Source: Frigoriglobus tundricola
Lineage (GTDB): Bacteria > Planctomycetota > Planctomycetia > Gemmatales > Gemmataceae
NCBI RefSeq assembly: GCF_013128195.2
Contig: NZ_CP053452.2
Span: 3,844,001-3,908,000 of the forward strand
Direction: 5' to 3'
Length of the DNA stretch: 64,000 bases
A program made the position numbers and the translations under genes. The notes under the pieces are model-generated. The model searched no databases. It worked only from the letters and a program-made list of their open reading frames with translations, and was not told the origin of the DNA. Below, one piece after another: positions 28,735 to 31,182 of the stretch (positions within the stretch are counted from its first letter, which is position 1; each line of letters starts with the position of its first letter).

Positions 28735-31182
28735 ATGCCCCCCACGCAGACGCGGGACACGTTCCTGACGCTGGTCGAGCGGAGCGGTCTGCTCGGCCCC
28801 GAGCGGATCGGCGCGTACCGCGAGGGGCCGGAAAACCCGGTCGAGCTGGCGCGGGCGCTGGTCCGCGACCGGCTGCTCACGCCGTACCAGGCCCAACAGC
28901 TCCTGCGGGGCAAGTACCGCGGGTACTTCCTGACCGAAAAGTACAAGGTCCTCGACGAACTCGGCCGGGGCGGCATGGGCCGGGTCCTCCTGTGCGAGCA
29001 CCTGTTGTTGCAGAAGTTGGTGGCCCTGAAGCTGTTGAACTCCTCCTGGACGAACGTGCCGGGAACGGCGGAACGGTTCCTGCGCGAGGCCCGCGCGTCC
29101 GCGGCCGTCGACCACCCGAACATCGTCCGCGTGTACGACGTGGACCGGGCGGCCGGCGTGCCGTTCATGGTCATGGAGTTCGTGGACGGGAAGAACCTGC
29201 ACCAGTTGGTCGCCGAACACGGCCCGCTGGCCCCGGCGCGGGCCGCCGAGTACGTCCGGCAGGCCGCGGTCGGGCTGGAGGCGGCCCGCAGCGTCGGTCT
29301 CGTCCACCGCGACATCAAACCGGCCAATCTGCTCCTCGACCGGGCCGGAGTCATCCGGCTCGCGGACCTCGGTCTGGCCCGGTTCCTGGGCGACGCCATC
29401 CGCCGGAACGAGAACCTGACCCAGCAGTTCGACCCGAACAGCGTACTCGGTACGCTCGATTTCATTGCCCCCGAGCAGGCCGACAATTCTAGCGCCGTGG
29501 ACATTCGCGCCGACATCTACTCGCTGGGGCACACGCTGTATTACCTTCTCACCGGCAAGATGCCGTTCGGGAACGGGTCGACGGCGCAAAAGCTGATGTG
29601 GCACCAGTTGCGGCACCCGGAGCCGCCGTCGGTGCTGCGCCCGGAGGTGTCGGCGGAACTGGAAGCCGTGTTTCGCCGGATGACGGAAAAAGACCCCGGC
29701 GACCGGTACCAAACGCCCGCCGAGGTGGTTGCGGCGTTCCGCGCGCTGTCCAGCGTACCGGCCCCGCCGCCGTCGCCCGAGGAGATGCCGCGGGTCCGAG
29801 CGGATTCGTTTCTGCTGGGGCTCTCGCCCCCGCCCAGCCAGGCGGTGCTGTCCGGGTCCGTCCCCGCGCCACCCACGCCGACCACGACCGACACGGCCGT
29901 GGGCCCGAGTTTACCGGCAAAGGCAGCGAGCCCGTCGTCATCCCATCCGGCCGGTGGGGACGGGCAACCGGCGTCCGGAAGTGACGTGCTGCGGTCCGTC
30001 CGGGCGGAAGTGCCGAACCCGCCTGCCGAACCGGCCCCTTCGGGGCCGGCGCGCGGGTCCCGGCGGGTGCTCCTCGCTTTCGTTGTCCTTCTCGGAGCGC
30101 TGGGCACCGGCGGCGCGGTGTGGTTCTTGTCCCCGCCCAAGGAGGTGGTAAAGGATAAGCCCCTACCGCCTCCGCCGCCGGATAGCGGACCGGGGCCGGT
30201 CGTACCCGTGCCGAGCGGAGTCGTCCTGACCGGCGAGGGATCGTCGTTCGTGGACCCGATGATGCAGCACTGGGCGGGCCTGTACCAGCCGGCGGCCGGT
30301 GTGACGGTCAAGTACACCAAGTCCGGTTCGTCCGCCGGGGTGCGCGCGTTGCTCGACAAGCGGGTCATGTTCTCCGGCACCGACGCCCACCTGACCAACG
30401 CGCAGCTCCTGGAGGCCGAGGCCATCGGCGGGCCGGTCGTCCACGTCCCGCTGGTGATGGGCGCCGTGGTCGTCACCTATAACCTGCCGGGGGAGAAGAA
30501 AACGCTCCGGTTCAACAGCGCGGTGCTGGCCGACATCTACCTGGGCAAGATCACCAAGTGGAACGACGACGCGCTCCGGGCGTGCAACCCTGGCGTCGCC
30601 TTCCCGAACCTCCCCATCACTGTGGCCCACCGCAAAGACGGGAGCGGGACCACGTTCATCTGGACCGACTACCTGAGCAAGGTGAGCGGCGAGTGGAAGG
30701 CCGGCCCGGGCGTCGGGAACGTGATCCAGTGGCCGGTCGAGGGCGTGGGGGCCGATAAGAACGACGGAATGGCCAACGAGGTGCGACGAACGGTCGGCGC
30801 GATCGGGTACGTCGAGCACGGTTTCGCGTTAACCAAGAACCTGCCGTTCGCCAACATCGAGAACGAGGCGGGGGAGTACGTCGCCCCGACGCTGGCGAGC
30901 GTGACGGCCGCGGCCGCGGCCGAGTTGCAGACCTGCCCGGCCGACCTGCGGTTCCGGTTCACCAACGCGCGGGGCCGGGAGTCGTACCCGATCTCCGGCA
31001 TCACCTGGGCGGTTCTTTACAAGAAGCAACCGGCCGGCACCGGCAAGCCGCTCGTCGAGTTCCTCCGCTGGGCCGTTCACGACGGCCAGAAGTACGCGAC
31101 CGACCTCCAGTACGCTCCGCTGCCGCCGGCACTGGTGAAGCGCATCGACGCGGTCCTCGACACCGTCACCGTTGGCCCGTGA
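28735..31182 (+). CDS. Transmembrane Ser/Thr kinase fused to a PstS-like phosphate-binding domain (815 aa)
   Basis: From N- to C-terminus: a short helical module common before planctomycete kinases (LARALVRDRLLTPYQAQQLL); a Hanks-type kinase at residues about 69-335 with GRGGMG at 77-82, Lys99, catalytic Asp193 in HRDIKPAN and Asp211 in DLG; a Pro/Ser-rich linker; one membrane helix at about 445-466; and a PstS-like domain from about 496 to the end. The last shows LTGEGSSFVDPMMQHW, KYTKSGSSAGV, FSGTDAHL and RKDGSGTTFIW, which match the phosphate-contact segments of PstS. It may sense external phosphate and signal inward. ATG at 28735 is inferred; an open frame upstream has no conserved sequence. 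No pst genes are adjacent. Confidence 0.9.
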   Translation: MPPTQTRDTFLTLVERSGLLGPERIGAYREGPENPVELARALVRDRLLTPYQAQQLLRGKYRGYFLTEKYKVLDELGRGGMGRVLLCEHLLLQKLVALKLLNSSWTNVPGTAERFLREARASAAVDHPNIVRVYDVDRAAGVPFMVMEFVDGKNLHQLVAEHGPLAPARAAEYVRQAAVGLEAARSVGLVHRDIKPANLLLDRAGVIRLADLGLARFLGDAIRRNENLTQQFDPNSVLGTLDFIAPEQADNSSAVDIRADIYSLGHTLYYLLTGKMPFGNGSTAQKLMWHQLRHPEPPSVLRPEVSAELEAVFRRMTEKDPGDRYQTPAEVVAAFRALSSVPAPPPSPEEMPRVRADSFLLGLSPPPSQAVLSGSVPAPPTPTTTDTAVGPSLPAKAASPSSSHPAGGDGQPASGSDVLRSVRAEVPNPPAEPAPSGPARGSRRVLLAFVVLLGALGTGGAVWFLSPPKEVVKDKPLPPPPPDSGPGPVVPVPSGVVLTGEGSSFVDPMMQHWAGLYQPAAGVTVKYTKSGSSAGVRALLDKRVMFSGTDAHLTNAQLLEAEAIGGPVVHVPLVMGAVVVTYNLPGEKKTLRFNSAVLADIYLGKITKWNDDALRACNPGVAFPNLPITVAHRKDGSGTTFIWTDYLSKVSGEWKAGPGVGNVIQWPVEGVGADKNDGMANEVRRTVGAIGYVEHGFALTKNLPFANIENEAGEYVAPTLASVTAAAAAELQTCPADLRFRFTNARGRESYPISGITWAVLYKKQPAGTGKPLVEFLRWAVHDGQKYATDLQYAPLPPALVKRIDAVLDTVTVGP

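Follow-up and report, generated by a model that had tools for sequence, protein, structure and literature searches.

How a bacterial Ser/Thr kinase might read phosphate outside the cell is the question raised by a gene at 28735-31182 on the forward strand of the 64,000-nucleotide stretch of the Frigoriglobus tundricola genome analyzed here (the window). Its product joins a Hanks-type kinase to a PstS-like phosphate-binding domain in one chain. The original prediction for this gene held that the protein reads external phosphate directly, by a route independent of PhoR. Judged from its sequence and a structural model, the protein is likely to be a receptor kinase that spans the membrane and responds to inorganic phosphate. 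The evidence for this consists of the domain architecture, the kinase motifs, the PstS fold and phosphate contacts of the outer domain, the recurrence of the fusion in related genomes, and its linkage to pst genes in two relatives.

Structure of the kinase-PstS gene

The frame runs from an ATG at 28735 to a stop at 31182 and encodes 815 amino acids with no internal stop, in agreement with the predicted coordinates. A longer alternative begins with a TTG at 28471, but the alignment of relatives begins around the ATG. The features of the gene, all on the + strand, are as follows, with the evidence in brackets (pLDDT, predicted local distance difference test).

28735..31182, +: kinase-PstS fusion gene, 815 amino acids (open frame, Pfam, NCBIfam)
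28735..28938, +: N-terminal helical extension, residues 1-68 (alignments; modelled as helical in the weak full-length prediction)
28942..29712, +: Hanks-type Ser/Thr kinase domain, residues 70-326 (Pfam PF00069, 157.3 bits)
29029-29031, 29311-29313 and 29365-29367, +: kinase residues K99, D193 and D211 (motif alignment)
29713..30063, +: Pro-rich juxtamembrane segment on the kinase side, residues ~327-443 (sequence; pLDDT <50 at 354-494 in the full-length model)
30064..30132, +: predicted single membrane helix, residues ~444-466 (hydropathy maximum at 445-463, with positively charged residues towards the kinase)
30133..30225, +: Pro-rich linker on the PstS side, residues 467-497 (sequence)
30226..31164, +: PstS phosphate-binding domain, residues 498-810 (TIGR00975, phmmer against PDB, model, fold matches)
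30232..30249, +: phosphate segment 1, GEGSSF, with S504 and F505 for E. coli T10 and F11 (alignment)
30322..30339, +: phosphate segment 2, SGSSAG, with S532 for S38 (alignment)
30373..30384, +: phosphate segment 3, SGTD, with D550 for D56 (alignment)
30631..30657, +: phosphate segment 4, RKDGSGTTF, with R633, D635, S637, G638 and T639 for R135, D137, S139, G140 and T141 (alignment)

The Pkinase profile scored far above its cut-off of 31.7 bits, and the beta3 Lys (K99), the HRD Asp (D193) and the DLG Asp (D211) were all present, so that by its motifs the protein carries a complete Hanks-type Ser/Thr kinase, as had been predicted. These motifs were whole in 16 of the 17 fusions described below, and in the activation segment of the 17 aligned rows Thr229 was near-invariant and Thr240 invariant. 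The N-terminal extension was common to other kinases of the family, and matches of kinases without PstS began at residue 1.

A single strong hydrophobic stretch (residues 445-463, Kyte-Doolittle mean 2.15), preceded by RGSRR and followed by the Pro-rich linker, was consistent with the one membrane helix of the original prediction, which was called here from hydropathy. A hydrophobic stretch separated the kinase and PstS domains in all 17 fusions (19-residue mean 1.45 to 3.06).

The outer domain and its phosphate pocket

Residues 496-779 matched the Pfam model PBP_like_2 (124.8 bits, cut-off 27), and residues 498-810 matched the NCBIfam equivalog for PstS, TIGR00975 (330.9 bits, cut-off 205), while two other PstS models scored below their cut-offs (NF008171, 231.7 of 339; TIGR02136, 59.3 of 206.6). 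The 20 sequences matched by phmmer in the PDB were all named as phosphate-binding or phosphate-transport proteins, the best with an expectation value (E) of 1.4e-69. A model of the outer domain from a 40-row alignment had a mean pLDDT of 95.3 and a predicted template modelling score of 0.92, and its best 20 Foldseek matches (E 7e-38 to 1e-28) were PstS proteins, among them those of Burkholderia, E. coli and Xanthomonas. In VIA-align, the model matched M. tuberculosis PstS-1 with a Z of 43.3, the phosphate-bound PstS of Xanthomonas (8ods) with a Z of 42.7 (root mean square deviation 2.1 over 311 residues) and that of E. coli (2abh) with a Z of 42.0 (2.1 over 313 residues). ModA-type molybdate/tungstate binders were far below, at about Z 16. 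A model lacking the PstS fold had been named beforehand as grounds for abandoning the idea, and the fold that the prediction returned was that of PstS, at Z ~42. By family profile and predicted fold, then, the outer domain is a full PstS domain.

The four phosphate segments recognized in the original prediction aligned in register with E. coli PstS (1ixh). At the nine positions of that protein which we take to be its phosphate contacts (the register itself was aligned), the window protein reads S-F-S-D-R-D-S-G-T and E. coli PstS reads T-F-S-D-R-D-S-G-T. Eight of the nine are identical (F11=F505, S38=S532, D56=D550, R135=R633, D137=D635, S139=S637, G140=G638 and T141=T639), and the ninth is a change from T10 to S504, so the contact residues, whose loss in an alignment would have spoken against phosphate binding, were kept. 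In 18 fusions, the contact positions were 88.9% identical to E. coli PstS, compared with 33.8% elsewhere. The corresponding values were 93.3% and 37.3% in 33 lone PstS rows, a set that contains some cut fusions and still includes L050, L171, L165, L180 and L182. The contacts of the fusions were thus kept nearly as well as those of transport PstS, and identity so far over the background is expected if phosphate binding is under selection. All nine contacts were kept in 11 of the 18 fusions when Thr and Ser at position 10 were counted as equal.

Distribution of the fusion

The search for this architecture in other Planctomycetes showed that it recurs. At least 17 fusions were found in at least 12 of the 95 genomes of the family Gemmataceae, in searches that scored at most 10 and at most 23 first-look candidates per genome. 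There were three in G008, two each in F. tundricola (G000), G045 and G051, and one each in G006, G007, G016, G019, G020, G023, G044 and G094. The fusion recurs in at least five genera, and the cultured strain Zavarzinella formosa DSM 19928 (locus L057) is among its carriers. A frame or assembly artefact was excluded because the same domain order repeats across the family, this cultured strain included. One more fusion was found in a record labelled uncultured Schlesneria (L058). Among the best 80 of 578 related places in named genomes, five had a kinase match in the same frame, and all five were labelled as planctomycetes (L055, L057, L058, L099 and L108).

No fusion was recognized in 7 genomes of the order outside Gemmataceae (at most 21 candidates scored per genome) or in the 391 other genomes of a 392-genome sample of the phylum (at most 5 per genome). 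None was recognized in 282 genomes of the phylum of a myxobacterial bin (L063; at most 7 per genome), or among the matches listed for 297 genomes of the phylum of an acidobacterial bin (L103; at most 7 per genome). Only part of the candidates was scored, so these results are weaker than a demonstration of absence. The kinase-PstS fusions form a small family that has so far been seen in planctomycetes alone.

Several other long frames were considered. L134 was rejected as a fusion because its frame is overlong and encodes an ordinary PstS. L167 had a PstS match and no kinase match, and L168 and L183-L188 had no kinase match at 1e-3, with no PstS match either in L168 and L186. Two PstS rows from G092 that appeared to be lone proteins lie as fragments at contig ends, and each has a hydrophobic stretch and a Pro-rich linker in frame. 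For these reasons they are probably cut fusions, and they were left out of the 17.

In a tree of the PstS domain (50 rows), the 18 fused domains fell within a set of 22 rows with a Shimodaira-Hasegawa-like approximate likelihood ratio support of 91. The four lone rows in this set were the two G092 pieces and two membrane-anchored PstS-like proteins from G006. The PstS tree needed 4 label changes, compared with a mean of 15 when labels were shuffled, and the kinase tree needed 4 compared with 14; both were quick trees without bootstrap, and solo_L165, a second read of one fusion, was omitted from the former. Among the lone rows near fusions in the kinase tree, L173 is a kinase at a contig end that pairs with a fusion, while L017, L018, L019 and L054 stood beside three fusions. 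These trees fit one or few origins followed by divergence, with a single origin not proven. The two G006 proteins are encoded in tandem (L182:3552-4724 and 5220-6434), each with an N-terminal hydrophobic stretch, and D56 is replaced by His in both.

A second fusion and the pst and pho genes of F. tundricola

Four genes of the F. tundricola genome (9.86 Mb, 2 contigs) matched PBP_like_2. Besides the window gene, these are another fusion, at C1:1813778-1816459, and two PstS genes of the ordinary kind. The second fusion (L035:9778-12459, - strand) retains the beta3 Lys, while HRD has become HKG and DLG has become EVG. Its kinase domain still scored 112.4 bits in Pfam, and all nine phosphate contacts were kept. 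From these residues it is probably a pseudokinase with a good phosphate sensor, and it might serve as a regulator or decoy of the active window copy.

The two ordinary PstS genes belong to separate pst loci. One (L036) encodes PstS, a fused PstC-PstA and PstB, and the other (L037) encodes PstS, PstB and two genes whose products clustered with PstC-PstA by blastp. A further, very divergent kinase (L036:16946-19249, - strand) lies about 5.5 kb from the first of these loci. The genome also contained one PhoU-domain protein (50.5 bits) and a PhoR-like histidine kinase with PAS, HisKA and HATPase domains. The latter scored 291.4 bits, the best of 90 matching places, and the cut-off of the PhoR model, 334.2, lies above this score and was passed by only 1 of 14 control genomes. 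Given that F. tundricola encodes these two proteins and two pst loci, the evidence does not extend to the proposed independence from PhoR: the fusion could act through the PhoU/PhoR system, adjust it or circumvent it.

Gene neighborhoods

The window fusion lies between a gene for a tetratricopeptide repeat (TPR) protein and the remnants of degraded transposases. A Pfam scan of 14 neighboring frames (~21 to 43 kb) detected no pst or pho gene, as the original prediction had noted for the adjacent genes, and the other PBP_like_2 and PhoU matches of the genome all fall outside the window. No sigma-70 family match was found among the neighboring window frames scanned. Just downstream, at 31217-32565 on the - strand, is a degraded transposase with a weak DDE_Tnp_1 match (20.9 of 23, below the cut-off).

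In two of the 17 fusions, those of G008 and G016, the gene adjoined pst genes. The G008 genes (L046, locus 12818-19731) lie on one strand in the following order.

12818-13438: sigma-70 family gene
13496-15835: kinase-PstS gene
15992-17122: pstS
17119-18081: pstC
18078-18962: pstA
18935 to contig end: pstB, cut by the contig end (330.9, cut-off 343.2)

In G016 (L043), about 10 bp separate the end of the fusion from convergent pstCA, with pstS and a divergent pstB beyond. About 0.01 such adjacencies would be expected by chance, by a rough estimate from ~4 flanking places per genome and ~6,000 genes. Neighborhood genes were called with a custom rule on GC content at third codon positions (GC3), and several neighborhoods stop at contig ends.

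Adjacency to pst genes in two relatives, together with the retention of the overall PstS fold, would also suit a tethered transporter subunit. In that case the outer domain would hand phosphate to PstCA, and the kinase would regulate or be regulated by the importer (a transceptor), so that it would read transport and not free phosphate. This explanation appears unlikely, because the pst loci seen, both those of F. tundricola and those beside the two fusions, have an ordinary PstS of their own. Sequence conservation also argues against it. At eight positions that were at least 80% conserved in 27 lone PstS rows, the residue was kept in at most 40% of 20 fused domains, and at four further positions most fusions had another residue. 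The positions were chosen by conservation alone, in a comparison that excluded solo_L165, the incomplete solo_L180 and both L182 rows.

A sigma-70 family gene was directly upstream of one fusion in G008 and of one in G045 (L048), and in G007 such a gene directly precedes a kinase whose start is truncated by the end of the contig. Relatives of the G008 and G045 sigma genes (E ≤ 1e-15, at most 32 candidates scored per genome) were found in 5 of the 95 genomes, all five among the 12 with fusions, although three of the five share a genus and the matches in G006 and G051 were weak and did not adjoin a fusion. In F. tundricola, no such relative was found at E ≤ 1e-15 among the 32 of 77 candidates scored.

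Other genes also recurred beside the fusions. In L046, L047+L165 and L048 (G008, G007 and G045), and partly in L164 (G051), there was a conserved block. Next to the sigma gene it comprises a tRNA_anti-like protein that, judged by eye, starts with CxxC, a small protein that matched nothing in Pfam, DUF1559 pseudopilin-like proteins, and a TPR protein whose end is tRNA_anti-like. In G051 (L044:3439-11683), T2SSE and T2SSF genes were located between two kinase-PstS genes, a layout in which phosphate sensing is possibly linked with a secretion or pilus system.

Proposed function and alternative explanations

As a receptor, the protein would expose its PstS domain outside the inner membrane, where phosphate would bind in the cleft and cause it to close. 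The single helix might relay this change, as a transition between open and closed forms or between monomer and dimer, to the kinase inside, perhaps through a shift in dimer contacts of the kind used by other single-pass kinases. The kinase would then raise or lower the Ser/Thr phosphorylation of targets that tune the cell to the phosphate supply. Direct reading of external phosphate, as originally proposed, was borne out in part: the PstS fold, the contacts, the recurrence and the adjacency to pst genes in two relatives speak for it, while the ligand, the membrane orientation, and the transfer of the signal and its direction are what we infer.

Several observations weigh against this reading. 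The full-length model (6 rows) was poor, with a pLDDT of 55.4, and gave nothing on signal transfer. One fusion, L044_9152, had a weak hydrophobic stretch between its domains (mean 1.45). The window copy stands apart from pst and pho genes in the frames scanned, and a PhoB-box-like repeat (a pair of TGTCA-like words at a distance of 11 bp) was no better matched upstream of both F. tundricola fusions, three F. tundricola pst genes and G008 pstS than in shuffled sequences (at least 52 of 300 equal in each of the six regions). Finally, 7 of the 18 fusions had at least one altered contact besides Thr/Ser at position 10. The G008 fusion that heads the pst cluster had an eroded pocket, with four of nine contacts changed (T10P, F11L, S139G and T141A), and the other six were L038 (D137E), L040 (D137G), L045 (D56G), L048_3082 (D56E), L048_14912 (F11L and D137E) and L049 (F11L). 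D137E alone need not mean loss, since it was present in 8 of the 33 lone PstS rows and D137 mutants of E. coli PstS have been crystallized with phosphate (PDB titles 1qui, 1quk and 1qul).

Such pockets might instead indicate that a different ligand, for example another oxyanion, a phosphate ester or a partner protein, is sensed through the PstS fold, and the substitutions shared by the fusions (A9S in all 20 fused domains, S55T and F145W in 90% of them) would agree with this. For the window protein this seems quite improbable, as it retains the nine contacts with one conservative change and its fold matched PstS much better than ModA-type binders. The damaged pocket of one relative and the F. 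tundricola paralogue without catalytic residues could also be taken as signs of a decaying or passive fusion with no sensing role. That explanation is highly improbable, because contacts and kinase motifs were conserved against ~34% identity to E. coli PstS and because the fusion was found in several genera.

If the protein is a phosphate receptor, a single chain with its own PstS would provide a direct and separable phosphate input into Ser/Thr signalling. We know of no established input for most of the 98 to 140 such kinases that each genome of the family encodes. Few bacterial Hanks kinases have a presumed ligand as well grounded as this one, and this makes phosphate binding and phosphate-dependent kinase activity directly testable. 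On a wider scale, Gemmataceae may possess their own branch of phosphate signalling that is based on receptor kinases instead of histidine kinases. It would consist of PstS-sensor Hanks kinases, a pseudokinase partner with the same phosphate sensor in F. tundricola and, in some relatives, control of a neighboring sigma factor and an adjacent pst importer. This suggestion is tentative and somewhat doubtful.

Comparison with known systems

Most external phosphate sensing in bacteria is accounted for by the PstSCAB-PhoU-PhoR system, in which PhoR is thought to read the state of the transporter via PhoU. The window protein is proposed to share the purpose of this system, the reading of external phosphate, but its binding domain and kinase form one chain and the kinase is of the Ser/Thr type. 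Its outer domain resembles the PstS of PstSCAB (E. coli 1ixh/2abh, Xanthomonas 8ods) in fold, sequence family and phosphate contacts. It differs in that it is joined by a helix to a kinase, is not a separate exported subunit and, in the window, is not encoded with pstCAB.

The sensor of the M. tuberculosis kinase PknD is a beta-propeller. The pknD and pstS2 genes of M. tuberculosis form a predicted operon (PMC3322341), so that there, too, a Hanks kinase is genetically tied to a phosphate-binding protein gene, but as two separate proteins and not as one chain. Ser/Thr protein kinases that activate extracytoplasmic function (ECF) sigma factors have been described as the pairs PknT/EcfP and PknS/EcfK (PMC8999054, PMC8103513, PMC13147305). 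The sigma-70 family genes directly upstream of two kinase-PstS genes, and before the cut kinase start of a third, recall these pairs, unlike F. tundricola, where no sigma relative was found among the candidates scored. Activation of the EcfP type, by a charge-restoring switch, is not indicated in the sigma-linked relatives, because two Asp persist at the DAED motif (GRDD or CRDD, by eye) where EcfP has STTA.

A 2024 survey of Planctomycetota and outgroup species counted 307 kinase architectures, and it gives 98 to 140 Hanks-type kinases for each genome of this family (PMC11032199). The available main text of that survey contained neither 'PstS' nor 'phosphate-binding', and its supplementary architecture list may include a kinase-PstS protein. 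In the available part of PMC3355149, PF12849 and Pkinase were each paired with the YARHG domain and not with one another. No kinase-PstS fusion appeared in the titles or abstract openings of the open-licence PMC papers listed, and the available parts of PMC1262709, PMC11032199 and PMC3322341 did not describe a PstS-kinase chain.

The closest precedents are the Ser/Thr kinases with solute-binding sensors that were already reported in 2005 (PMC1262709). These include a Streptomyces coelicolor kinase with a Glu/Gln-binding domain (gi|21223285) and a Nostoc PCC 7120 kinase with an ANF-receptor-like domain for branched-chain amino acids (gi|17227840). The window protein shares with them a Hanks kinase and a periplasmic binding domain of the ATP-binding cassette importer type in one chain, with a helix between the two in the window protein by hydropathy. 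The sensors described there are of amino-acid type and the main text available did not contain 'PstS' or 'phosphate binding', whereas the window protein matches the PstS equivalog and has an intact predicted phosphate pocket. The PstS-sensor chain is thus a variant on an already known design, that of a kinase joined to a solute-binding domain.

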